Shown: in pieces, positions 95 through 11,953 of the stretch
Numbering within the stretch: the first letter of the stretch is position 1
How the letters are laid out: each line of letters opens with the position of its first letter
The notes under the pieces: model-generated
The model's database searches: none
The model's input: the letters and a program-made list of their open reading frames with translations, nothing else
Told to the model about the DNA's origin: nothing
NCBI GenBank assembly: GCA_946629405.1
Contig: CAMOXW010000034.1
Coordinates: 1-12,222 of the forward strand
Direction of reading: 5' to 3'
DNA: 12,222 nt
Source: an uncultured Ruminococcus sp.
Lineage (GTDB): Bacteria; Bacillota_A; Clostridia; Oscillospirales; Ruminococcaceae
Translations under genes and position numbers: made by a program

Positions 95-1516
95 TTATTC
101 TTTAACTTTGCCTGACTTCAGCCTTTCAAGATAGTCCTTTGTCTCGGATGCCACGACCCCTGAGAGAAGGATTATCGCAATCACGTTTGGTATAGCCATG
201 AGGCCGTTGAAAATGTCAGCCATGTTCCAGACTGCTTCGACCGCGAGATAGGGACCTATAAATACGGCTGCGATATACACCCACCTGTAAACACTTGCCG
301 CAGTCCTGTTTGCTCCGATAAGATACGAAAGACAGCGCTCAGAGTAGTAATTCCAGCCGAGTATCGTTGTAAATGCGAATACTGCAAGGCATACCATGAG
401 TATGAACGATGATACCCTTTCGCTGAACGGCAGACCATAGTCAAAAGCCTTCATCGTTATCATAACGCCCTTCAGCTCTGTTTCTTCCCCGCAGCCTGAT
501 ATTATTATCGCAAGTCCGGTCATGGTGCAGACTATGATAGTGTCGATGAATGTGCCTGTCATGGTTACAAGTCCCTGACGGACAGGCTCATTGGTTTTTG
601 CGGCAGCGGCTGCGATAGGTGCTGAGCCGAGACCTGCTTCATTTGAAAAAATACCCCTTGCAACTCCGCTTTTCATAGCGTAGGCCATAACTGTTCCTGC
701 CGCTCCGCCGGCTGCGGCTTTAAGGCTGAACGCACCGGTGATTATTGATGAAACAGCCTCCGGTATCTCTGTGATATGGCAGAAGATTATTATAAGGCAG
801 CAGCATACATATGTAACTATCATAAACGGTACTACGACCTCGGAAACTGTGGCGATACGCTTTATGCCGCCTATAACTATGAAGGCAGTCAGCAGAGTTA
901 TCAAAGCCCCTGCAATAACGGTAGTCCATGTGTACTCCGCTCCGAGCACGGACACAGTATGATCTTTCTGTGGGTCAAAGAACTGATTTGCCGCTGAGGT
1001 TATACCGTTGATCTGCGTGACCGTACCGATGCCCATAAGTCCGGCAAGCAGACCGAACAGCGCAAATATTTTTGCAAGCCACTTCCATTTTTTGCCGAGC
1101 CCGTTTTCGATATAATAGAAAGGTCCTCCGAGGATATTTCCGTTCTCGTCCTTAACACGGTATCTGACCGCAAGCAGACCCTCAGCGAACTTCGTAGCCA
1201 TTCCCAGAAACGCTGCGAACACCATCCAGAACAGCGCACCTGCACCGCCTGCTGCGATAGCTGTAGCAACTCCGACAATATTTCCTGTTCCCACCGTTGC
1301 GGAAAGAGCTGTACACAGCGCTGCAAAGCTCGATACCTCGCCGCTGCCGTCCTCCTCATTCCTGACCATATATTTCAAAGCAGTACAAAGCCTGCGTATC
1401 TGCAAAAATCTCAGACGCACTGTGAGCAGTACGCCGCAGGCCATTATAAGAATTATCAGGGGAAGTCCCCACACATAGCTGTCCACATCACTTATCAGAT
1501 CATTGATCTTACCCAT
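95..1516 (-). CDS. Alanine/glycine:cation symporter family protein (AGCS)
   Basis: Predicted inner-membrane secondary transporter that imports alanine or glycine with Na+ or H+. The family is recognised from the loop GTGNIVGVATAIAAGGAGA (about residues 76-94) and from SNEAGLGSAPIAAAA with the following TNEPVRQG (about 291-315), both AGCS signatures. The rest is a series of hydrophobic helices (for example 15-35, 150-170, 200-217, 225-247, 370-387, 415-430, 440-455). At 473 aa it has the usual family length and appears intact. The reading frame is open up to 1690, but I place the start at 1516. An AGGAG sits 8 nt upstream, a consensus promoter lies at 1548-1576, and any longer form would run through that promoter and the preceding terminator. 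It is a single-gene unit with its own promoter and terminator, probably unrelated to the surface operon upstream. Exact substrate and coupling ion cannot be read from the sequence. Confidence 0.95.
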   Translation of the reverse strand: MGKINDLISDVDSYVWGLPLIILIMACGVLLTVRLRFLQIRRLCTALKYMVRNEEDGSGEVSSFAALCTALSATVGTGNIVGVATAIAAGGAGALFWMVFAAFLGMATKFAEGLLAVRYRVKDENGNILGGPFYYIENGLGKKWKWLAKIFALFGLLAGLMGIGTVTQINGITSAANQFFDPQKDHTVSVLGAEYTWTTVIAGALITLLTAFIVIGGIKRIATVSEVVVPFMIVTYVCCCLIIIFCHITEIPEAVSSIITGAFSLKAAAGGAAGTVMAYAMKSGVARGIFSNEAGLGSAPIAAAAAKTNEPVRQGLVTMTGTFIDTIIVCTMTGLAIIISGCGEETELKGVMITMKAFDYGLPFSERVSSFILMVCLAVFAFTTILGWNYYSERCLSYLIGANRTAASVYRWVYIAAVFIGPYLAVEAVWNMADIFNGLMAIPNVIAIILLSGVVASETKDYLERLKSGKVKE

Positions 1517-1643: not shown

Positions 1644-1681
1644 AAAAAAGCAGAGCCTACGGGAAATCCCGTAAACTCTGC
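1644..1681 (-). terminator. Rho-independent terminator at the end of the surface operon
   Basis: On the minus strand GCAGAG/CTCTGC (1681-1676 with 1655-1650) is followed inward, after a 3-nt symmetric internal loop, by ACGGG/CCCGT around a 4-nt loop. A run of six T (1649-1644) comes next. It lies about 57 bp past the stop of the vWA protein gene and just upstream of the symporter promoter, separating the two transcription units. Confidence 0.85.
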
Positions 1682-1737
1682 GCCGATCATGTTGAAATGT
1701 AATATCTGTCCGCGGTAAGGATCGCTCTCAGCTTTCC

Positions 1738-4700
1738 TCAGAACAATCCTCCGCCGCCGTTGTACGGGTCGTATTCCTCGTCATACTGGTCATCTTCATG
1801 AGATTCATAGGGGTTGAAGAACGGATCGTTCTGCCCGTAGGTCTCATCCTCGTAGGAATAGTCGTTCTGTCCGTAGGGATCATACTGTTCGTTCCTGTTT
1901 TCGGATGCGGGAACGGTCGTTTCCTCCTTCTCCCTGTACTTGCGCTTCTTCTTGCTGACAGTGATGCCCTTGTCTTTAAGGTAATCCTCCGCGGTATCGG
2001 AAGCTCCGCCCATGTCCATCTGGGCTACTGAGGTGAGTATCGAATTAGCAGTTTCCTCCGAAATATCGCCGGATTCAGCCTTGTCCTCCACCTGCTTCAC
2101 ATAGCGCTTCGTCAGGAAGGAGAGGTACTTCTGCTGGAGGCTTCCGTCCTCGATGCTGTTGTCGTAGAGCATCTGCGCTGAAACGAGCTCCTGATCGCAG
2201 ATCTGGTTGAATATCGTCGTTGCTGCCGAACGGTAGATCGTCACGATGCTGAGCGTCATAAGCAGGCATATTCCCATTACGACAAGCTTCGCTGTAACTG
2301 CTGTTGCCGACTGCTTCTCACGCCTTGCCCTCTCAGGCAGCCATATCGGTACCGTATGTATCTCCTCTCCGCAGGTACGGCAGAATTTCGTCCCGGGAAC
2401 GACGGCTGCTCCGCACTTTCCGCAGACCTTGTTCTTCTGGCTTCTTCTGTATGCGAAGTATAGCTCAAGTCCGAGGAGCGCGGTGAATATAACTGCAAGG
2501 CTGACCCAGAATACGATCGCAAGGGTATTTGACTTCTTGCTGCCGCTGCCGTTTTCGCCGGCTGTATAGGCCGAATCGAACTTTCCGTCGCCGTCGCTGT
2601 CAATATTGAGAGTCGTTTTGCCGGAGGACTTCGTGTTCGTCGCTATAACTGTGTCGGGACTTACCGGTATCGCCTTGAAGGTGCGGACATCGGAATATTC
2701 GCCCTCGTCATCGGCAAAGCTTATGGAATAATCCATTGTTCCTGTGCCGTAGCCGTTTATGCAGAGCTCATAGTTCGCCTCGTCATTCAGCCTGAGCACC
2801 TTGACCTCGTTATTCTCGCCTTCAAAGGAAAGTGAACCGAACGATGCCCTTGTACTGAGTGCCTCGGGGTCTGAGCAGAGAGTTTCACCGCTGCAGCTTA
2901 CCGTTACATCGACCGGGCAGGCTATCCTTACAACTATGCTATAGCTTCCGCTGACTGAATCCGCAAGGTCATTAAAAGCGTAGGCAAGGTCGGAGCTGTC
3001 CGTTACATTATAGTCGCAGCTCTCGGATGCGATAGCCTTCATGAGCGCCTGCGCTTCGGTAAGGCCGGTGCCTCCGTAGTTGTGGAAAAATCCGAGAGTA
3101 TAGATGATTATACCGCTGTCCTTTATCTCCTGAGCCTTCTCCTTTACAGCTGACTCATAGCTTCCGTCCGAGCCCGTGGGACCGTTCTCCGGATAGCCGT
3201 CGCTAAGGAGAAAGAGCAGTTTTTTATTGCTGTCGGTGTGGGAAAGCAGCTCCGCGCCGGTGTCGATGCCGTCGTACATATTTGTACCGCCGTCTGCGCC
3301 GAGATTCTGTATCGCGGAAACGAGCTCGTCCCTGTCGCTGCTGGAGATTATCGCCTTCTTCGCATTGGTCGAATACGGAACAAGGCTTATGTCAATGCTC
3401 GGATTCTCGCTGAGAACATAGTCCACGAACTTTATCGCGGAGTTCCTTGTCTCGGAAATCGGCTCGCCGCGCATACTTCCCGAAACATCAAGAACAAGCG
3501 CTACTGAACGTCTTACCGAGCCGAATTTTGTGAGTATCCTGTCGCGTGAGACATAGTCCTCGCCCTCCTTGTCGGAAACGATAATATCGCCCGACTCATA
3601 GGATATCTCATTGTTTTTGGTATCAGTTACCGTGATGTTGTAGATGCCGGGGTCAATTCCTTCAAGTGTGAAGTCCGGCGAATTGCTGTCCTTGTCGATG
3701 ACGTCCTCACTGTCGGAATTTCTTGTAACTGTGACGTGGTAGTCGGAGTATTCCGAATAAGCTGAATCATAGACAGTAAACTCAGCGTTGTTGGTGTATA
3801 CCTTTTCAAACGCGCGGCATACGCCGGTGCTTGTTATTCCCGACTCAGCGAAGGCCTCGATAACGCTCATGAGCTGGCTGTCGGAAAGCTTGTATGTGCT
3901 GTCAACATAGCGTCCGCCCGCGTTGAGCCTTACAGCGGCAGAAACTATGATATCGCTGAACTGCTCATAGGTCATCATGCCCGGCATCATATCGAGCGAG
4001 ATGAAATAGAGGAAGCCGATCTGCTCCGTTGTGAGCGCCTCAAAGCCGTTCACGCCCTGTGACATGAGGTAAGCGGTGTGTGTGATGAGTGTGCTGTCAT
4101 GAGCCTGCTCATCAGGTGTGAGCCTGAATGAATACCCCGCAGTATCGGCTAAAACTGCCGCATTTCCGGTCGAAGCCGGGTCAGCCATGCTCCTTGCGCT
4201 GCCTGTGCTGTCGGGAGCGGATATCCAGTCGCAGGAATTGTCAAAGCCGCCGTCGGAATAGTCCTCGCAGAGCTCCGCAAAGAGGTCGGCAAGTCCGGTA
4301 TAGAACACCGAATCCGCAGTTATCGTCATGGGAAGCATCGCCTTTGCGTACTCCTTAGCGATGCCGTTCAGTGAAATGTTGTCCGCAAGCACAGCGGAAG
4401 CCGCCTGTTCAGTGAAGCCGTCGCCGGTCAGATCGGTGTAGCGCAGGGTCAGCTCCTCAGGGATAAGGTCACTGCGGAGGAAGCCGCGCAGCCGCTCGGA
4501 GGCTGAATACAGTGTGATGAAGTACCCTTCGAGCGCACGGTTATAGTTAATGTCAAAGAAGTCGTAAGCCTTGACAGCATTCTCGAAGATTGAAAGAGCT
4601 GCCGCATTGGTCTTCTTTGCGGGAGCGTAGAGGTCATCGTCCGAGAAATCGTCGTAGACATAGATCTGGCGGTCACTGTCACCGATCGTTCCATTGTCCA

Positions 4701-5544
4701 CACGGCTTGTGTAGCCTGTGTTGTAGTATGAGCTGCTGCCGGCATATCCCACGGCCGTGTCGATTATCCTGCCGGTGTTGGCGTCGATGTAGATTTCCGA
4801 AACGACGGCACCTGTTCTCGGGTCTATGACGGAAAACTTATACGCAACAATCGGCTCATCGTCTGAATTGACATAGATCACCTTCCCCTGATTTTCAAGG
4901 CTGAAATCCTCCGGAGCAACGCCTGTAGTGTCGTATACCTCCTGCTCAGCCTTCTCAGAAGCCCTTTGTGAATCTATTTTCGGGGAAACGTCGAGGTCCT
5001 CGGGCGGAGTAAAATGCACTCCCTCGATGCTTTCGAGGGAGCCGTCCTTGTTGACTACCTCCTTGATGCTGAATCCGTCGATCGAAATACCTTCAATATA
5101 CTGTTTGAAGGTATAGGTGTCGAAGACCTCGCCCTCGGAATACTCCGTGATGCTGTACTCCTGCTGGGGATGCTCGATCCCGAGCTCCGGGGCAAGAGTT
5201 TCAAGCGCTGCCATAGCTTCTTCTTCGTCATTGATAATAATATCATTTTTTCCGGAAACACCGCCCGCACGGTAGGATATCACGCCCTTTGCCTTTATTG
5301 AATCGGCGCGGAGCTGGAGGCTCTTGATCTCCTCCTTGATCTCCTGCTGCTCGGAGGTCATTCCCTCGGATGCAAGGGCCTCGCCGGGATGCTTGCTGAG
5401 AACGCTGTAGATACAGTAGCCGTCAACAGCCGTCGTAACTGAGATAACGCCTATCATCGCCCATGTCAGCGCGCGAAGTCCGCCGCGCTTTGGTAGCTTC
5501 GCGGGTGCCGCAGCCTTTCCGGGAGCGTTTTTTGCTTTACTCAT
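1738..5544 (-). CDS. Large membrane protein: FTP/PepSY, degenerate M4 peptidase-like domain, vWA domain, zinc ribbon
   Basis: A 1268-aa protein. I start it at ATG 5544 because GGAAGG lies 8 nt upstream; a GTG three codons earlier is in frame but badly placed. In order: TM helix (about 25-48), charged coiled-coil-like stretch (62-87), FTP-like and PepSY-like regions (about 105-265, with YIDANTGRIIDTAVG-type ending), M4-like domain (about 267-575), beta-sandwich (585-660), and vWA domain (about 680-870). Then come a DSDGDGKFD calcium-type loop (982-990), TM (1007-1033), zinc ribbon (C1041, C1044, C1055, C1058), TM (1083-1106), and an acidic Tyr-rich tail. The vWA MIDAS residues are present: DVSGS (D686, S688, S690), T754 and D782. 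The M4 similarity rests on RSMADPA (451-457) and AYLMSQG (491-497), but the HExxH position reads IAKEY (395-399) and the third ligand position reads T416. It is therefore probably a non-catalytic, ligand-binding surface protein. Topology and role are inferred. Confidence 0.88.
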   Translation of the reverse strand: MSKAKNAPGKAAAPAKLPKRGGLRALTWAMIGVISVTTAVDGYCIYSVLSKHPGEALASEGMTSEQQEIKEEIKSLQLRADSIKAKGVISYRAGGVSGKNDIIINDEEEAMAALETLAPELGIEHPQQEYSITEYSEGEVFDTYTFKQYIEGISIDGFSIKEVVNKDGSLESIEGVHFTPPEDLDVSPKIDSQRASEKAEQEVYDTTGVAPEDFSLENQGKVIYVNSDDEPIVAYKFSVIDPRTGAVVSEIYIDANTGRIIDTAVGYAGSSSYYNTGYTSRVDNGTIGDSDRQIYVYDDFSDDDLYAPAKKTNAAALSIFENAVKAYDFFDINYNRALEGYFITLYSASERLRGFLRSDLIPEELTLRYTDLTGDGFTEQAASAVLADNISLNGIAKEYAKAMLPMTITADSVFYTGLADLFAELCEDYSDGGFDNSCDWISAPDSTGSARSMADPASTGNAAVLADTAGYSFRLTPDEQAHDSTLITHTAYLMSQGVNGFEALTTEQIGFLYFISLDMMPGMMTYEQFSDIIVSAAVRLNAGGRYVDSTYKLSDSQLMSVIEAFAESGITSTGVCRAFEKVYTNNAEFTVYDSAYSEYSDYHVTVTRNSDSEDVIDKDSNSPDFTLEGIDPGIYNITVTDTKNNEISYESGDIIVSDKEGEDYVSRDRILTKFGSVRRSVALVLDVSGSMRGEPISETRNSAIKFVDYVLSENPSIDISLVPYSTNAKKAIISSSDRDELVSAIQNLGADGGTNMYDGIDTGAELLSHTDSNKKLLFLLSDGYPENGPTGSDGSYESAVKEKAQEIKDSGIIIYTLGFFHNYGGTGLTEAQALMKAIASESCDYNVTDSSDLAYAFNDLADSVSGSYSIVVRIACPVDVTVSCSGETLCSDPEALSTRASFGSLSFEGENNEVKVLRLNDEANYELCINGYGTGTMDYSISFADDEGEYSDVRTFKAIPVSPDTVIATNTKSSGKTTLNIDSDGDGKFDSAYTAGENGSGSKKSNTLAIVFWVSLAVIFTALLGLELYFAYRRSQKNKVCGKCGAAVVPGTKFCRTCGEEIHTVPIWLPERARREKQSATAVTAKLVVMGICLLMTLSIVTIYRSAATTIFNQICDQELVSAQMLYDNSIEDGSLQQKYLSFLTKRYVKQVEDKAESGDISEETANSILTSVAQMDMGGASDTAEDYLKDKGITVSKKKRKYREKEETTVPASENRNEQYDPYGQNDYSYEDETYGQNDPFFNPYESHEDDQYDEEYDPYNGGGGLF

Positions 5545-5572
5545 ATATATCACCTTCCGGTCAATAAAATTA

Positions 5573-5606
5573 TCGGGCAGCCGCCGTTATCAACAGAGCT
5601 GCCCGA
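5573..5606 (-). promoter_or_regulatory. Intergenic hairpin, possible attenuator before the vWA protein gene
   Basis: A perfect 9-bp inverted repeat (TCGGGCAGC 5573-5581, GCTGCCCGA 5598-5606) with a 16-nt loop lies between the 166-aa gene and the large vWA protein gene. On the minus strand it is followed by TAATTTTATT. That tract is U-rich but interrupted, so partial termination or mRNA processing/stability is more likely than full termination. The large gene's ribosome site lies beyond it and remains free. Confidence 0.5.
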
Positions 5607-5630
5607 AAAGTGATCATCGGCTTGTTTAAA

Positions 5631-6131
5631 TTATACTCCCCTGTATTTCTTTCCCGTCAGCACGGCAATGATTATTGCGCCTGCGAGAAAAATGAAAGGG
5701 GCAAAGAGTATATTGCACTCGATAAGGGATGAAGCAGTGCTTCCCCCGAGGTCTTCAACAGCACCCTCGCAGTTATTCTTCACCTTGAAGGCATCTATCG
5801 CAAGGAAAGCATAAGCGATGACCTGAAACGTTGCACCGGCAGAAAGTTCAGCCTCTGCCTTGCTCCCGTCCGGCTGGAGGAGAGCGCCGAGCACGGCGAT
5901 ACCGGTAAGTATCGCTGCGATTATCCCGACGACCCTTGTGACCGATGAGAAGCTGCTCGAAGCGAGCCTGTCTCCCTCGATGTCGAGGGAGGAGGACTTG
6001 CTCAGGTCGTTTATGTCAAATGTTTTGCTGAATCCGAAGACCTTGATCTGAAAAATTTCGACTCTGAAAAAAGCAATTGCTATAATGACGAGTGCCGCCG
6101 ACAGTACAAATACTTTTGTCGAATTCTTCAC
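5631..6131 (-). CDS. Four-TM membrane protein without zinc ribbon, paralogue-like
   Basis: A 166-aa protein of unknown function. It shows four hydrophobic segments (about 6-22, 64-85, 100-115, 140-159). An outward loop of about 40 residues lies between the first two and a shorter one between the last two. This is the same plan as the membrane half of the four upstream zinc-ribbon proteins, but the Cys4 ribbon and the low-complexity linker are absent. The start is GTG, four nt after the TGA stop of the preceding gene. No strong AGGAGG is present, only a weak AAGTGATC, so translation is probably coupled to the upstream gene. C121 and C139 in the second outer loop could form a disulfide. Family membership is by architecture only; sequence identity to the others is low by eye. 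Confidence 0.82.
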   Translation of the reverse strand: MKNSTKVFVLSAALVIIAIAFFRVEIFQIKVFGFSKTFDINDLSKSSSLDIEGDRLASSSFSSVTRVVGIIAAILTGIAVLGALLQPDGSKAEAELSAGATFQVIAYAFLAIDAFKVKNNCEGAVEDLGGSTASSLIECNILFAPFIFLAGAIIIAVLTGKKYRGV

Positions 6132-6135
6132 TGGA

Positions 6136-7029
6136 TCACTTGTTTAAGTTCACGCCGCCGCCGGGATTTCCGGGAGCAGCAGGTGCGACGGGAGCAGCGG
6201 ATGCGCCGGGAGCAGCAGGTGCGCCAAAGCCGGGAGCACCGTTCATGGGCATACCATTCTGGGGTGCGCCGAAGTTGTTCTGGGGAGCGCCGTAGCCGCC
6301 GCCGAAGCCGCCGTTGTTATAGCCGGCAGGTCTTGCACCGAGCTTGATGATCTCTGCGCTGAACAGCCACCATACGATCATGATAGCAGTGAGTATGAGC
6401 ACAAGTATGACAGTTACGGTAACGCCGCCCTTCATCTTTGCAGACTTGGAGAAACCATCCTTGATCTCGCCCTTGAGATGGAGAGCATAGATCATGAGGA
6501 AAAGGTAGCTTACGAACATTGTGATATGGGTGATACCGAGTAGTTTTACGGATTTGAGGTTGTTCTTGTTTAAGTAGAACAGTGAAGCAATGATGCCGCC
6601 GAGTGCTGTGAGCTCAAGGAGAACTCCGAACACCTTCATGAAGGAAGTGAATCCTGTGTCAAAGCCCTCGATACAAGCGTCATAGCTTGCCTTTGATCTT
6701 TCATCCCAGCCCTTGAACTTGTAGTTGAGGATGTCGAATGCGTGGAAGCCTATCATGAGGTAGATGAGTATGCCGATCATGATGATGATGATGATCGGGT
6801 TCTTCTTAACGTCGATGAGCGACTTGAAGTTGAAGGTCTTTCTCTGGCCGTACATCGGAGGAGCACCGTATACGTTCTGGGGAGGAGCGTAGGGAGTGGG
6901 TGCCGGAGCAGGTGCAGGTGCCGGAGCAGGTGCAGGTGCCGGAGCAGGATTTACGCCTGTTGCAATGCCGCAGTTAGGGCAGTTCACTGAATTGTCAGGA
7001 ATATTTTTGCCGCAGTTTGTACAAAACAT
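6136..7029 (-). CDS. Zinc-ribbon four-TM membrane protein with Pro-Ala linker
   Basis: A 297-aa protein of unknown function. The N-terminus MFCTNCGKNIPDNSVNCPNCG is a Cys4 zinc ribbon (C3, C6, C17, C20; C-X2-C-X10-C-X2-C). A (PA)n linker (28-45) and a YAPPQNVYGAPP segment follow, then four TM helices (about 78-98, 131-153, 163-184, 203-223). Unlike its neighbours it has a long Gly/Pro/Ala/Asn-rich tail (235-297) that again carries APQN units. With N-in topology, both ribbon and tail would be cytoplasmic. The start is ATG 7029, with GAGG 9 nt upstream; an in-frame TTG two codons earlier is too close to that site. It ends 4 nt before the next gene, so the two are probably coupled. The ribbon may hold zinc or serve protein-protein contact; no enzyme motif is visible. 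Confidence 0.88.
   Translation of the reverse strand: MFCTNCGKNIPDNSVNCPNCGIATGVNPAPAPAPAPAPAPAPAPTPYAPPQNVYGAPPMYGQRKTFNFKSLIDVKKNPIIIIIMIGILIYLMIGFHAFDILNYKFKGWDERSKASYDACIEGFDTGFTSFMKVFGVLLELTALGGIIASLFYLNKNNLKSVKLLGITHITMFVSYLFLMIYALHLKGEIKDGFSKSAKMKGGVTVTVILVLILTAIMIVWWLFSAEIIKLGARPAGYNNGGFGGGYGAPQNNFGAPQNGMPMNGAPGFGAPAAPGASAAPVAPAAPGNPGGGVNLNK
6899..6949. repeat. 18-bp tandem repeat coding a Pro-Ala linker
   Basis: Two exact 18-bp units (GGTGCCGGAGCAGGTGCA, 6899-6916 and 6917-6934) and a partial third lie in frame within the linker of the 297-aa protein. Each unit adds six residues (three Pro-Ala pairs), so changes in copy number would keep the frame. Confidence 0.85.
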
Positions 7030-7057
7030 TTTCAATTACCTCTCTTATTTTTTATTT

Positions 7058-7071
7058 CAGCGCAAGCGCTG
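7058..7071. repeat. Short palindromic hairpin between two zinc-ribbon genes
   Basis: CAGCGCAAGCGCTG is a near-perfect inverted repeat in the 53-bp gap between the 244-aa and 297-aa genes. No T-run follows it on the minus strand, so it is not a terminator for this operon. It could be an mRNA stability or processing element; function unknown. Confidence 0.45.
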
Positions 7072-7082
7072 TATTTCTTAGT

Positions 7083-7817
7083 TCAGCGGAGCATACCAGC
7101 ACCGGAGTTAGCGTTTCTCATAGCCTGCTCGCCGGTGAGCTGATCTGCTAATTTTTTTCCGCATACTGAAATAGCTATCATAACGATGAGCCAGAACCAG
7201 CTTGTGAACGAAGGTCCGCCGCCTACCTTTATGCCTGCAAATGAAGCAAGGGCGAACAGACCGCTGGACTTCATCTTTGCCCTTACATACCAGCCGTTGA
7301 AAAGAACAAATAAGTATCCGACTGTCATGCAGGTTCCGCCAAGACCTACTGCCTTGACAGCGTTAACGGTATTGCGCTGATAAAGCGAATAGCCGCAGAG
7401 ACCTATTGAGCCGACTGTACCGATGACAGAAAGTATGGCAACTACATTTACGAACTTCGAGAAGCCGAGATCACCGTCTGTGCAGTCAGAAAGAGAAAAC
7501 TTCTCTGTCTCCTTGTAGCCGCCGCCCTTTACTGTGACCTTGACTGTATCGAAGCTGAAAATGCCTATCATACCGATAATAAGGAACAGTATCATTATTG
7601 CCGGGAGTATCATTTTTACGCTGAGCTGATACTGTTTTCCGGCGATGTTGATAACGGGCATACCGCCGCCGGCTGCACCGTTCATCGGAGCTCTGTTCTG
7701 GGGAGCGCCGTAGGTATTGGGAGCTGTATTCTGGGGAGCTGCATTTGTGGGATTTCCACAGTTTGGACAATTCGCTGAACCGTCCGGGATCTGGTTTCCG
7801 CAATTTCTGCAAAACAT
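7083..7817 (-). CDS. Zinc-ribbon four-TM membrane protein
   Basis: A 244-aa protein of unknown function in the same family as its neighbours. The Cys4 ribbon is at C3, C6, C17 and C20 (MFCRNCGNQIPDGSANCPNCG). A short linker (22-60) with APQN and RAPMNGAAGGG pieces follows, then four TM segments (about 68-89, 122-146, 157-177, 205-222). The outer loop between TM1 and TM2 is about 35 residues and beta-rich, with many charged and Thr/Gly residues. The frame is open to 7856, but ATG 7817 is preferred. It begins directly with the family's M-F-C ribbon start and has GAGG 8 nt upstream. Gaps of 109 bp before and 53 bp after contain small hairpins but no clear promoter or terminator, so I read it as part of the operon. 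Confidence 0.88.
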   Translation of the reverse strand: MFCRNCGNQIPDGSANCPNCGNPTNAAPQNTAPNTYGAPQNRAPMNGAAGGGMPVINIAGKQYQLSVKMILPAIMILFLIIGMIGIFSFDTVKVTVKGGGYKETEKFSLSDCTDGDLGFSKFVNVVAILSVIGTVGSIGLCGYSLYQRNTVNAVKAVGLGGTCMTVGYLFVLFNGWYVRAKMKSSGLFALASFAGIKVGGGPSFTSWFWLIVMIAISVCGKKLADQLTGEQAMRNANSGAGMLR

Positions 7818-7838
7818 GATTTTTTCCTCACTTTCCTT

Positions 7839-7854
7839 GACCTTTAAGAAGGTC
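7839..7854. repeat. Hairpin just upstream of a ribosome binding site
   Basis: GACCTT and AAGGTC form a perfect 6-bp stem around a 4-nt loop, in the 109-bp gap ahead of the 244-aa gene. It lies immediately 5' of that gene's GAGG site. No U-tract follows. The rest of the gap (7855-7926) holds further GC-rich inverted repeats, including CGGCA/TGCCG around GAAA on the minus strand, and no promoter I can defend. Confidence 0.45.
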
Positions 7855-7926
7855 ATACCGAATGTTTTTTCCGGCTTAAAGCCTGCCGGAGCCGGCTATG
7901 ATACGGCATTTCTGCCGGTGTCACGG

Positions 7927-8721
7927 TTAACGCGCCTCGTTGTCTGAGCTCTTTGCCGTCCTGAAGCAGACAACAATGAGTGCCGGTCCGAGAATGAGCA
8001 TCAGCCACGGTGCAATAGCAATTTTTGCTTCACCGTCATAGTGATCTTCACCGTTCAGGTGGATGGCCAGGATAATGTTCATAAGATATCCCACTACCGG
8101 AAGCACAAGCGAAAGCGCTGTCACGCGAAGTGAATCCGCACCGCGTCTGACAGCTGCGAGATATCCCGCAAAGCCGAGCATGAGCAGTCCGAGGATTATA
8201 ATTATCATGTTGATGATTATCATAGTGCAGACGAATTTGCAGCCGATCCCGTCATTTCCTCCCGCAAGGAAACAGCTGTACCAGTGTGCGAGAGCAAAGT
8301 CATAGTGCTCCTCCTTCAGGCCGGGAAGTATGATAAGTCCCATAATGTAGAAGAATGCGCTGATGATAAGGAACGGCGGGAGCATTGATAGCACGCCGCC
8401 AAGAGGCTTGCGTGAGAAGAACGGCTTGCGCGGTGCATAGCCGTAGCCCGCAGGTGCGCCGTAATATCCCTGCGGAGCACCGTAGTTCTGGGGAGCGCCG
8501 TAGTTCTGGGGAGCACCGTAGTTCTGGGGAGCGCCATAGTTCTGGGGAGCGCCATAGTTCTGGGGAGCGCCGTAGTTCTGGGGAGCGCCGTAGTTCTGAG
8601 GCTGTGCCGGAGCCGCCGGAGCGCCGTAGTTCTGAGGCTGTGCCGGAGCCGCCGGAGCGCCGCACTTCGGGCAGAATGTTGAGCCGTCGGCATAGCTTGT
8701 GCCGCAATTTTTACAATACAT
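7927..8721 (-). CDS. Zinc-ribbon four-TM membrane protein with APQNYG repeat linker
   Basis: A 264-aa protein of unknown function. The ribbon is at C3, C6, C17 and C20 ([21 protein letters not shown]). It is followed by a long disordered linker (about 21-100) with two [12 protein letters not shown] units and six APQNYG units. Four TM helices follow (about 108-132, 163-190, 201-222, 237-253). Between TM3 and TM4 it has AIHLNGED and AIAP, and it ends in FRTAK. The preceding gene's protein has matching [13 protein letters not shown] and LRAAK, so these two are the closest pair in the array. GGAGG lies 8 nt before ATG 8721, and the upstream gene's stop codon falls inside this leader. That indicates translational coupling and rejects the longer open frame to 8736. 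Confidence 0.9.
8474..8662. repeat. In-frame minisatellite: seven 18-bp units plus 36-bp units
   Basis: On the plus strand seven nearly identical 18-bp units (GGAGCGCCGTAGTTCTGG with A/G and C/A changes) run from 8474 to 8599. One full 36-bp unit (8600-8635) and a partial second follow; each 36-bp unit contains the 18-bp sequence. They encode the Q/N/Y/G-rich linker of the 264-aa protein. Unit lengths are multiples of three, so expansion or contraction keeps the frame. Confidence 0.93.
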
Positions 8722-8726
8722 ATCCC

Positions 8727-9494
8727 TTACCTCCAACCATATGCTGCGGCAGCCGGAGCGCCGTTGTATCTGAGGACCTTTGCTGCTCTGAGCGCGAACA
8801 GGCAGGCTGCTGCGCTTACCAGTACCATGACTACAGGCTCGATCGCAAACGAAAGATCGTCTTCGTCAGACTTGAGATGAATGAACAGTATGACGAAGAA
8901 GATATGCGGTATCGCTGAGCAGACTGATGCTATCGCTGCTATTAAAGCCGCTGTGTCGTACCTGCCGATGAACGCCGCAGCAGCACCTCCGATAATAGAA
9001 AGCGTCATGAGTGCGCCGAGGATTATCGTGATGTAAGTCGTTGTTACTGTGAGTCCGTCATCGACATAGTCTGAGAAGTCGCTGAAGCCATCTTCCTTGA
9101 TGTCCGCAACGTAAGAATTATCCATAGTGCAGACGCCGTAATAGGTCTTCTTCTCGCCGTCAAAGCGTCCTTCGTACTCAAACCTGAACATCGTAGTCTT
9201 GAACATTCCCATGATGAGGAAGCCTACCATGAGCAGGACAGCACCGACAAGGAGCATTTTTTTCTTATCGACCGGCTGACGCGGTACATAGCCGTATCCG
9301 CCGGGAGCGCCGTAATTCTGCGGCGGCGGGGGCGGATATCCCTGAGGTGCGCCGTAATTCTGCGGCGGCTGGGACGGATATCCCTGAGGTGCGCCGTAAT
9401 TCTGCGGCGGCTGAGCTGCTGTCTGCGCGGCTCCGCACTTCGGGCAGAAGCTCTTCCCGTCAGGCACCTGAGAACCGCATTGGTTACAAAACAT
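8727..9494 (-). CDS. Zinc-ribbon four-TM membrane protein with Tyr/Pro/Gln linker
   Basis: A 255-aa protein of unknown function, first of the zinc-ribbon array. The ribbon is at C3, C6, C17 and C20 ([21 protein letters not shown]). A linker (about 25-75) built of [12 protein letters not shown] units follows, then four TM helices (about 79-97, 151-176, 181-206, 219-236). The TM1-TM2 outer loop (about 50 residues) is the largest of the family and acidic (for example [17 protein letters not shown]). The start is ATG 9494 with GGAG 6 nt upstream. An earlier in-frame start (9524) would add a lysine-rich leader translated from the Shine-Dalgarno region itself, so it is rejected. The stop codon lies 5 nt before the next start. 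It follows the esterase gene after 35 bp, consistent with one transcript. Confidence 0.9.
9307..9412. repeat. 42-bp tandem repeat coding the linker
   Basis: Units of 42 bp start at 9307, 9349 and 9391; the third is partial. Each encodes a 14-residue block of the type [14 protein letters not shown]. The core is GCGCCGTAATTCTGCGGCGG, followed by a more variable part and GGATATCCCTGAGGT. The unit is in frame and related in protein sequence, but not in phase length, to the repeat in the neighbouring gene. Confidence 0.9.
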
Positions 9495-9529
9495 AATGAT
9501 CTCCACCTTCTTTTTTATTTTCAAGACCG

Positions 9530-11266
9530 TTATCCGATCTTTTCAAGCTTAACATTATAAAGGGTCACGCTGCGGTAGTTGATGCCGCCCATGTATACCG
9601 CGATCTGTGCGTCCGGGTCGTCCGAATCGACCGTAAATTCAGCCTCAAACGGCGACTTCGCACCGCTGTTCACAAGGGTGCCGCTGTAGTATACCTGCGA
9701 GCCGTCCGCACTTCTGAGGAATACCTCATGGTCGGAGGTCTTTCCGCCCTCGCCCTCAGCCGAGGTACACTCAAGGGTCAGGCGGTACTTTCCGCCCTTT
9801 TTCAGGCCTATTCCCGAAATGACAGCCTGTACGTCCTCGGGGGAGCTTCCGCCGCTCACCATGTTCACCCAGAAGGACTTGTCGTAGTCCGAGAAGAACG
9901 TCGAGGCATTTGCGCCGGAGCCTTCGCCGTAGGAAATGCTGTACTCCGCATCCGCCGCAACATCGAGCCCTATCTGGTCGGATTCAAGTCCGAGAGCCTG
10001 ACAGATCTTATCCGAGAGAATGTATGCGTTCTTCTGCTGTGTCACCGCCGAGGGATGCCAGTCAGAGCCGTAGCCGTCCGAGGTACTCTGCACCGGTGAC
10101 TGGTAGGACATTATCCTTGTATCTCCGGTTGCTTCCCTGAAATCGGCAACTGCCTGCTCTATCATCGGGTATTCGTCCGTGCAGCCCATAATTCCGAGCG
10201 TGCATATTATGTAAGCGTCAGGGTTGTTTTTCCTGACAGTTTCGAGGAATTTTTCGTACTCCTGCGTAAACTCCGGACCGCGGGTCTCGGGATCCTTGTC
10301 AATGTAGGTAGCATCGTTCGTACCGAGATTTATCACGACAACATCGTTCGGCTTCGCGCTGAAATCCCACGGGGTCGCGTAATCCTTCATCGAGCCGTAA
10401 TTCTCATAGTACGGCGGAACGAGCTGTCCTGTTACCTTTGTACCGTCCGAGGAATAGCCTGAAACGATGCCGTGGCCGCTGTAGCTTACAGCGCTGTACT
10501 CCGCGCCGAGCTTCTGTGCAGTGAGGTAGGCGTAGGACTTCATGAAATTCTCGGTGGTGGTCTTGAAGTTCTCGTACTGTGATTCTCCCTCAACACCGTA
10601 TGCACAGGTTATCGAATCGCCGATGAACTCGATCCTGAGGTCCTTCTCCTTAACCGGCCGGACCGGGGCAGCAGCATTTGAATCAGCTTTTATCTCAGAA
10701 ACTCCCACAGCGCCGTTGTTTGCCTCTGAGAGGTGGATTATCTTCACCTCGGCGCTTCTCGGGGAAGTACCGCTGAACAGCTCGACTGTTTCCTCCGCCT
10801 TGCCCATAGTTGCATCGGAAATTATCTCGCCGTCAACGATCACGGCATATCTTGGTCTGTGCTCCTCGCCGTTTGAAATTGAGCTGTCGCCCTTCAGGGT
10901 AACTGACGCAGACCGCGCATTTACGGTAAACTCGACCGCAGAGCCGCTCTGGACGAGCCATAGTGTGCCGTCCTTGTAAAGGTCTCTGCCGACATACTTG
11001 ACGTGATCCTCAGTTACCGGAAATGATGACTGAACGAATTCTCCCGTAGAAACCAACTCCCGCCTCATTCTGATCATGTCGAAAACATCGACCCGTCCGT
11101 CGCTGTTGAGATCCTGTTCCGCCTTTACAGGAGCTTCACCGAGGAGGGAATCTCTCATGCCCTTGAGATCGTCCGCGGTATATTTTTCCGCCGCATATAC
11201 AGCAGCACCTAAAGCTGCTGATGAAACTGCCGCTGCCGTAAGAGCAGTGACAATACGCCGTTTCAT
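9530..11266 (-). CDS. Secreted SGNH/GDSL esterase, CE2-like, with N-terminal dockerin-like F-hand
   Basis: A 578-aa protein. I chose ATG 11266: GGAGG lies 10 nt upstream and the product then begins with a clean signal peptide (MKRRIVTALT, cleavage near AVYA-AEK, about residue 25). Next is a dockerin-like segment (about 28-73). One F-hand loop, DLNSDGRVDVFD, is intact; the first repeat keeps only its helix (YTADDLKGMRDSLLG). A jelly-roll-like region (80-195) comes next. The SGNH hydrolase domain (about 210-430) has GDSI (S218 nucleophile), SGHG (264-266), LGTND (N317) and DWHP (H404). The two-domain layout with GDSITCAYG fits carbohydrate esterase family 2, whose members remove O-acetyl groups from plant polysaccharides such as xylan or mannan. 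A C-terminal beta-sandwich (about 440-578) may bind carbohydrate. It is the first gene of the operon. SGNH fold is sure; CE2 and substrate are less so. Confidence 0.92.
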   Translation of the reverse strand: MKRRIVTALTAAAVSSAALGAAVYAAEKYTADDLKGMRDSLLGEAPVKAEQDLNSDGRVDVFDMIRMRRELVSTGEFVQSSFPVTEDHVKYVGRDLYKDGTLWLVQSGSAVEFTVNARSASVTLKGDSSISNGEEHRPRYAVIVDGEIISDATMGKAEETVELFSGTSPRSAEVKIIHLSEANNGAVGVSEIKADSNAAAPVRPVKEKDLRIEFIGDSITCAYGVEGESQYENFKTTTENFMKSYAYLTAQKLGAEYSAVSYSGHGIVSGYSSDGTKVTGQLVPPYYENYGSMKDYATPWDFSAKPNDVVVINLGTNDATYIDKDPETRGPEFTQEYEKFLETVRKNNPDAYIICTLGIMGCTDEYPMIEQAVADFREATGDTRIMSYQSPVQSTSDGYGSDWHPSAVTQQKNAYILSDKICQALGLESDQIGLDVAADAEYSISYGEGSGANASTFFSDYDKSFWVNMVSGGSSPEDVQAVISGIGLKKGGKYRLTLECTSAEGEGGKTSDHEVFLRSADGSQVYYSGTLVNSGAKSPFEAEFTVDSDDPDAQIAVYMGGINYRSVTLYNVKLEKIG

Positions 11267-11303
11267 GCAGTACATACCTCCTTTAGACACAAATATTTAC
11301 TTT

Positions 11304-11332
11304 ATTATATATTATTTCGTCCTCTGTGTCAA
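11304..11332 (-). promoter_or_regulatory. Consensus SigA promoter of the surface operon
   Basis: On the minus strand TTGACA (11332-11327) and TATAAT (11309-11304) match the consensus fully with a 17-bp spacer. AT-rich DNA with A/T runs lies upstream (11333-11394). Transcription would start near 11297, about 30 nt before the esterase ATG. No operator or riboswitch is evident in the short leader. Confidence 0.9.
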
Positions 11333-11394: not shown

Positions 11395-11421
11395 AAAAAA
11401 GGACGCCTTTGAACGGCGTCC
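11395..11421 (-). terminator. Rho-independent terminator after the peptidoglycan-binding genes
   Basis: On the minus strand GGACGCC (11421-11415) and GGCGTCC (11407-11401) form a perfect 7-bp stem with a 7-nt loop, followed by TTTTTT (11400-11395). It lies 10 bp past the stop codon of the 173-aa gene and ends that unit before the next promoter. Confidence 0.9.
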
Positions 11422-11431
11422 ATGTGCTCCA

Positions 11432-11953
11432 TTATTTTCGGAGCGTTCTGTCTATGTGCTCGCAGCAGTGGACGAGCATATTCCACGTTGCGCTGTCCAC
11501 TCTGCCGGTCGGCGGAAGTCCTGTCCTTCGCTGGAACCGCACTACCGCCTCTGTTGTAAGTCCGTCGAAATTTCCGCATATATCAACGCATGGAGCGTTG
11601 TCGTAATGGTCGCCTATGTCGTTGAGCATCGCCTGAATGATATAGACAAGCTGTCCGCTGTCGCCTGTCTTTGCGACGTATGCTGCCGACGGGAATACGC
11701 TGTACGGTGCGGGCGCTGCGTCAATATAGCTGCGGTAGACCCTCACTATCCTGTTCCATGTAGCCGTGTCGGTATTTCCCGTCACCGGAAGTCCGTACTC
11801 CATCTGGAAAGCTCTTACCGCATCCGCAGTCTCCGCGCCGTAGACACCGTCCGGCAGGATCTGCGGTATCCTGTCGTTGAACATGGAGATCGCGTAGAGG
11901 TACTTCTGTATCTCGGTGATATGCTGTCTGCGCTGTGCGTCTGTGTATGCCAT
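11432..11953 (-). CDS. Protein with two peptidoglycan-binding (PG_binding_1-like) domains
   Basis: A 173-aa protein made almost only of two cell-wall-binding repeats. The first is about residues 10-72 (DGVYGAETADAVRAFQMEYG then LPVTGNTDTATWNRI). The second is about 95-162 (GNFDGLTTEAVVRFQRRTG then LPPTGRVDSATWNML). A Tyr/Pro-rich spacer joins them. No signal peptide, TM helix or catalytic domain is seen, so it is not a hydrolase by itself and its export is unexplained. The start ATG 11953 has a purine-rich GGAGGAGGGAGGG directly upstream. The upstream peptidoglycan-binding frame runs into it in another frame: the two are either overlapping neighbours or one gene split by a frameshift. A strong terminator follows. 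Confidence 0.85.
   Translation of the reverse strand: MAYTDAQRRQHITEIQKYLYAISMFNDRIPQILPDGVYGAETADAVRAFQMEYGLPVTGNTDTATWNRIVRVYRSYIDAAPAPYSVFPSAAYVAKTGDSGQLVYIIQAMLNDIGDHYDNAPCVDICGNFDGLTTEAVVRFQRRTGLPPTGRVDSATWNMLVHCCEHIDRTLRK

Follow-up and report, generated by a model that had tools for sequence, protein, structure and literature searches.

A Ruminococcus operon joining a CE2-type esterase, predicted claudin-like tetraspans, and a vWA protein with an inactive M4 region

Rv0954, a DUF5336 protein, has four transmembrane (TM) segments, cytoplasmic ends, and a Pro/Gln-rich tail; according to the part of the source available here, it is a divisome member whose deletion brings no change in morphology (PMC8093794). 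The lactococcal Llmg_0524 and Llmg_0526 are zinc-chelating membrane proteins of one operon, and in the accessible part of that account Llmg_0524 contributes to wall integrity (PMC4628341). Here we analyze a 12,222-nt stretch of an uncultured Ruminococcus sp. (contig CAMOXW010000034.1, assembly GCA_946629405.1; hereafter the window, whose coordinates are used throughout) with seven genes, g1 to g7, encoding a CE2-type esterase (g1), five small four-TM proteins (g2 to g6), and a large protein with an inactive M4 region and a vWA domain (g7). We propose, with a probability of about 0.4, that they form a lineage-specific envelope operon of rumen and gut Ruminococcus, in which g7 is a pseudoprotease receptor accompanied by claudin-like tetraspans and a neighboring CE2 deacetylase. 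The published proteins match it only in part. The plan of g5 resembles that of Rv0954 in its four TM segments, predicted cytoplasmic ends, and low-complexity tail of the Pro/Gln type, but g5 is the only match, below cut-off, and the available part of the report mentions neither a zinc ribbon nor a paralogue array for Rv0954 (PMC8093794). Llmg_0524/0526 and TcaA are likewise membrane proteins with a CX2C...CX2C zinc motif, encoded in a multi-gene operon, but they have one or two TM segments rather than four, and the accessible text names no vWA or esterase partner (PMC4628341).

All seven genes lie on the minus strand, spanning 11266 to 1738, and as an earlier note made from the window alone had described, most of the gaps between them are short (35, 5, 109, 53, 4, and 86 nt from g1 to g7, calculated after the start codons were re-set using the MxC/ribbon start and upstream sequence). 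A promoter matching the consensus at 12 of 12 positions precedes g1. It is the top of 21 promoter-like sites in the window (10.6 expected from shuffles; standard deviation, 4.1), and its score was reached by none of 200 single-base shuffles of a 260-nt stretch. The same 12/12 promoter precedes the orthologous esterase at loci L001, L002, L066, and L067. This single promoter and the strong end terminator both bear out the earlier note. Further promoter-like sites on the operon strand (e.g., 8223 and 5123, both 10/12) fall within coding sequence; because the window exceeds its shuffles in such sites, internal transcription starts are possible. The unit is well bounded, since the peptidoglycan-binding gene upstream ends at a terminator of its own and the AGCS symporter gene downstream starts from a separate promoter. 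The symporter was rejected as an operon member on account of that promoter and of the other genes found in its place at L001, L002, L066, and L067. Judged by layout, g1 to g7 form one operon unit with predicted co-transcription.

The earlier note would have been refuted by a neighborhood not conserved in relatives, but the neighborhood recurs. A scan of named genomes gave two loci with the full gene set, L001 (R. flavefaciens metagenome-assembled genome RUG12238) and L002 (Ruminococcus sp. RGIG6695, from sheep rumen), while two further genomes have subsets of it. Both full loci have the order SpoIID-like/peptidoglycan-binding genes, CE2 gene, ribbon-bearing four-TM genes (six at L001 and five at L002, compared with four in the window), ribbonless four-TM gene, and g7. 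Gene order and promoter are kept at 55 to 58% protein identity. The SpoIID match at L001 scores 22.3 bits against a Pfam cut-off of 23, and the peptidoglycan-binding block is conserved upstream.

Near full-length g7 was found in at least 7 of 125 genus genomes (G001, G002, G025, G101, G050, G046, and G059) and at least 6 of 297 family genomes (G001 again, G195, G403, G371, G237, and G315, plus a partial one in G178). These are lower bounds, as the best five candidates per genome were scored for g7 in the genus, the best two for g7 in the family, and up to 12 for the four-TM proteins in the family. The loci differ in composition. L069 combines CE2 with a g7 that has an intact HEYTH motif and has no four-TM gene; at L068, whose contig ends inside the CE2 gene, the end of that gene (G050 C31 7753-8331) lies directly upstream of a HEYTH g7. 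L067 has CE2, one four-TM gene, and g7, and L066 adds a protein of 7 to 8 TM segments. Full four-TM arrays occur only at L002, L001, and the window among the loci compared for g7 states. The locus thereby offers a series of living intermediates: the esterase alone, the esterase with a predicted active M4-vWA protease, the esterase with one tetraspan and an inactivated protease, and arrays of up to seven tetraspans. All seven four-TM profile matches in G001 lie at the operon locus, with no second array in the two regions read (L079 and L080), and outside G001 the 297 family genomes gave only six weak four-TM matches among up to 12 candidates per genome.

Direct homologues of g7 include the M4 (thermolysin) metallopeptidases fused to vWA at L069 and L074, which likewise have a propeptide, M4 region, vWA domain, TM segment, zinc ribbon, and further TM segment in one chain. 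M4 descent is supported by a common alignment and tree and by matches above cut-off to PF01447 in both homologues and to PF02868 in that of L069. The window clade differs from them in lacking HExxH and the third zinc ligand and in having its g7 joined to four-TM arrays. Where relatives have HEYTH, g7 has KEYAK, and threonine occupies the position of the distal (third) ligand, which is missing across the clade. Of the 14 family members, 7 have HExxH (L068, L069, L070, L073, L074, L075, and P0003) and 7 lack it, for which the tree requires two changes, the first at the root of the window clade ([KR]EY[AV]K in 5/5) and the second in L071/L072. The latter two proteins (L071:9541-13383, EAFTQ; L072:7414-11268, SAYAQ) keep the vWA domain and ribbon and adjoin no CE2 gene, four-TM gene, or array. 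The vWA domain of g7 scores 69.6 bits (PF00092); the residues of its metal ion-dependent adhesion site (MIDAS), D689, S691, S693, T757, and D785, are invariant in three homologues, and DxSxS is found in 14/14 family members. The pseudo-M4/vWA protein of the earlier note is thus recovered with a complete MIDAS. A fifth, weaker ribbon, absent from the earlier note, lies in g7 at residues 1044 to 1064 of the 1,271-residue frame; it scores 20.2 bits, below cut-off, and its four cysteines are kept in 14/14. Simple hydropathy scanning picks up three TM segments in the g7 proteins of L001, L002, L066, and L067, and two of the three in that of the window.

Decay of the dead M4 part is unsupported. Between L066 and L067, the ratio of nonsynonymous to synonymous substitution rates (dN/dS) is 0.15 for the propeptide and pseudo-M4 part and 0.10 for the whole gene, and between L001 and L002 it is 0.14 to 0.16, with dS near saturation. 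Because dS along g7 varies from 0.21 to 0.88 in the L066/L067 pair, recombination may contribute to the figures for that pair. The ratios indicate that the inactive domain is under selection and not visibly decaying. The structure model of g7 is weak (57.9), and domains are not placeable from it. Its first matches are vWA pilus adhesins (Mfa5, SpaC, RrgA, and PilB), which share a vWA domain with a metal site, but long superpositions are poor and the same list includes integrins, complement factors, and other vWA proteins. Further, g7 differs from these adhesins in being membrane anchored with a protease-derived N-terminal part, and no sortase or pilin genes were seen in the operon. Several genus genomes also encode vWA proteins (P0004 and L014 to L020) that share the g7 vWA domain, the stretch after it, or both, but that in the rows of the search do not match the M4 part.

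The small proteins g2, g3, g4, and g5 match Zn_Ribbon_1 (PF13240; cut-off, 25 bits) at 31.9, 33.1, 25.7, and 25.0 bits, respectively, each with two CxxC pairs at ribbon spacing. Their common plan is an N-terminal ribbon, a low-complexity linker (QNYGAP, PAPA), and four TM segments, whereas g6 consists of four TM segments only. These are the four ribbon-bearing and one ribbonless proteins counted in the earlier note, although the TM number is four in each at the laxer threshold and three in g4 and g6 at the other threshold used. Alignment and tree place g2 to g6 in one paralogous family. In a 398-residue protein at L066 (12735-13931), which has 7 to 8 TM segments and a single ribbon, the orthologues of g2 and g3 are fused (support, 98/98 and 98/93); one half sits on a long branch. 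Tandem 18-bp repeats at 8452-8601 encode the QNYGAP units of the g3 linker, and their copy number could vary from strain to strain.

In the model of g4, the four TM segments are predicted to form a bundle, with loop 1 containing a beta hairpin and loop 2 a strand; these may correspond to the extracellular sheet that loops 1 and 2 form in the eukaryotic claudin/TARP/Cav-gamma superfamily. The model's best match in structure comparison (VIA) is a chain of the Cav1.1 complex, which we take to be the gamma subunit. The window proteins differ from that superfamily in being bacterial, in their N-terminal ribbon, and presumably in having fewer strands. The membrane scaffold suggested by the earlier note says too little of g2 to g6, paralogues of a single family whose fold is predicted to resemble that of claudins. 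On our reading of the topology, with no tool behind it, the ribbons would face the cytosol. An anti-phage role was rejected, since PADLOC gave only two weak partial matches (g2 32-112, E = 0.0012; g4 8-50, E = 0.018).

The secreted CE2-like esterase of the earlier note is well founded. CE2_N (PF17996) scores 51.0 bits against a cut-off of 27.9, the GDSL domain is also above cut-off, and g1 matches the CE2 acetyl esterase structure PDB 2wao at E = 5e-39. The translation contains GDSIT and SDWHPS, which fit what we take to be the CE2 motif, a GDS nucleophile with DWH. The AxeC2 model matches at E = 2e-30, yet below that model's cut-off, as does CBM_4_9 at the C terminus (Pfam). g1 differs from these acetyl esterases in adding a single dockerin-like Ca-loop repeat, DLNSDGRVDVFD (11116-11051), soon after the signal peptide, at 13.7 bits against a cut-off of 22.9. 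Similar repeats are readable in the esterases of L001 and L002. Membership in a cellulosome was rejected, since a dockerin needs two Ca-binding repeats.

Taken as an envelope operon, the locus could work as follows. g7 goes back to a thermolysin-type (M4) protease that was tethered to the membrane and carried a vWA module. Because the window clade has lost the catalytic zinc site while keeping the MIDAS, membrane segments, and zinc ribbon, g7 most likely serves at the surface as a receptor or adhesin and not as an enzyme, and it would bind its ligand through vWA. g2 to g6 would be claudin-like tetraspan subunits from tandem duplication, in four of which a flexible linker carries the ribbon; they most likely pack beside the g7 membrane segments and one another, as TARP and Cav-gamma flank their partner. 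They may set the assembly or outside placement of g7, with the ribbons tying the complex to the cytosolic face. g1, a secreted CE2 deacetylase from the same promoter, would strip acetyl groups off nearby polysaccharide as a functional neighbor rather than a structural subunit.

Several observations weigh against this proposal. Claudins carry the signature W...LW..C...C in loop 1, and it is found in 0 of 20 four-TM family sequences; nor is a claudin model among the best 25 of 35 Pfam families listed for these sequences. The three components also occur apart. CE2 reaches E ≤ 1e-40 in 107 of the 125 genomes of the genus, and none of the 12 further CE2 loci read has a four-TM gene or g7, several of them following the same SpoIID-like/peptidoglycan-binding pair. 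Of the eight g7 homologues outside the clade whose upstream context is readable, six (L070 to L075) have neither an esterase gene nor a four-TM gene beside them. Small proteins follow the esterase in seven genomes in which no full-length g7 was found. The single surface complex for sensing or binding put forward in the earlier note is plausible and, because of these separate occurrences, only partly supported, the conserved neighborhood and the intact vWA metal site speaking for it.

Separate occurrence is also what would be seen if the operon were one by descent only, a strong esterase promoter having captured unrelated genes, with CE2 acting alone on polysaccharide and the small proteins and g7 having separate jobs. 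Four-TM profile matches occur in 20 of 125 genus genomes, two weak ones (G007 and G039) being left unread for context. In 7 of the 20 (G053, G006, G120, G083, G059, G058, and G052) the four-TM genes lie beside an NSS-type transporter (type read from sequence, with no family search), and several of these zinc-ribbon relatives (L096, L097, L100, L102, L103, L104, and L106) adjoin a one-TM gene and a cyclophilin-like gene. However, four-TM genes directly follow CE2 in 11 of the 20, namely, the four g7-clade genomes and G005, G100, G049, G067, G026, G018, and G032; since seven of these lie outside the clade, the esterase-tetraspan pair exists without g7. The 12/12 promoter precedes CE2 at 9 of 12 loci with an adjoining four-TM gene compared with 1 of 14 CE2 genes without, in related, nonindependent genomes; three of these rows, L095 and the two from L109, come from contig ends or partial genes. 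The g2-g3 fusion, and an order and promoter retained at such protein divergence, likewise argue against capture, which we consider rather unlikely.

A role in cell wall integrity or division, in which the four-TM zinc-ribbon proteins act on peptidoglycan synthesis like Rv0954 or the lactococcal proteins, is improbable. It draws on the architecture and divisome membership of Rv0954 (PMC8093794), on the wall effect of the Llmg_0524 zinc motif (PMC4628341), both as far as the sources were accessible, on the peptidoglycan-binding domains encoded upstream, and on the g5 match to DUF5336 (PF17270). That match reaches 25.4 bits, short of the 28.6-bit gathering score, and 1 of 20 four-TM family members matches at E ≤ 1, so the small proteins were not assigned to DUF5336. 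Moreover, the upstream genes have their own terminator, at several of the 12 further loci they stand ahead of a CE2 gene that lacks the rest of the set, and the TM number of the lactococcal proteins (PMC4628341) and the unaltered morphology of the rv0954 deletion (PMC8093794) fit poorly, within the same parts of those sources.

A transport or channel accessory set, in which claudin-like subunits modulate or form a conduit and g7 is an extracellular regulator by analogy to alpha2delta and gamma, accessory subunits of Ca channels, would suit the presumed gamma match, the seven NSS-type neighbors, and the AGCS symporter downstream, but it is very improbable, as the operon has no pore-forming subunit and the symporter has its own promoter and is absent from that place at L001, L002, L066, and L067.

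The envelope operon reading has a wider form, which is doubtful: bacterial claudin-fold tetraspans, tandem expanded with cytosolic ribbons, would form hetero-oligomeric assemblies round a protease-turned-receptor, a counterpart of auxiliary-subunit and claudin-strand systems that either was built independently of its eukaryotic equivalent or is ancestral to it. Should the fold hold, it would be relevant to the question of whether claudin-type tetraspans arose in eukaryotes, and the locus would offer a small genetic system for studying an inactive protease domain retained as a binding module. Two features are new: the array of predicted claudin-like tetraspans and, at a single locus, the series from protease to pseudoprotease. 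Among the matches listed from open-licence PMC literature (titles and abstract beginnings), nothing concerned bacterial claudin-like proteins or this gene set, which is weak evidence of absence.

Table 1. Features of the window and their coordinates
Feature	Coordinates	Strand	Description
g1	9530..11266	-	start ATG 11266 after AAAGGAGG; secreted CE2/GDSL esterase, single N-terminal dockerin-like repeat, weak C-terminal CBM_4_9 match
g2	8727..9494	-	zinc ribbon, low-complexity linker, 4 TM
g3	7927..8721	-	zinc ribbon, (QNYGAP)n linker, 4 TM
g4	7083..7817	-	zinc ribbon, 4 TM; structure modelled, predicted claudin-like fold
g5	6136..7029	-	zinc ribbon, 4 TM, C-terminal tail rich in Pro/Gly/Asn; sub-threshold DUF5336 match
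g6	5631..6131	-	4-TM paralogue without ribbon; GTG start 4 nt after g5
g7	1738..5544	-	N-terminal TM, FTP/PepSY propeptide, inactive M4 region (KEYAK), vWA with complete MIDAS, beta region, TM, zinc ribbon, TM, helical C terminus
Operon promoter	11304..11332	-	TTGACA-17-TATAAT, sigma-70, 12/12 consensus, before g1
Operon end terminator	1650..1681	-	14-pair stem and T tract, after g7
Terminator of upstream peptidoglycan-binding gene	11401..11421	-	separates that gene from the operon
Upstream neighbor	11432..11953	-	two PG_binding_1 domains; belongs to conserved SpoIID-like/peptidoglycan-binding block; outside the operon
AGCS Na:alanine symporter, downstream neighbor	95..1516	-	likely start ATG 1516 after AGGAGAGG; own 11/12 promoter 1576-1548

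Scans of the window for RNA elements and tRNAs reported none. The longest frame of the AGCS gene (extra 1690-1517) begins upstream of the operon terminator, and the start at 1516 keeps the terminator intergenic. Where the window has AGCS, L001 and L002 have a macro-domain gene directly after g7 (L001:13727-14782, by Pfam; L002:13704-14840, by reading), followed by a short vWA-like gene.
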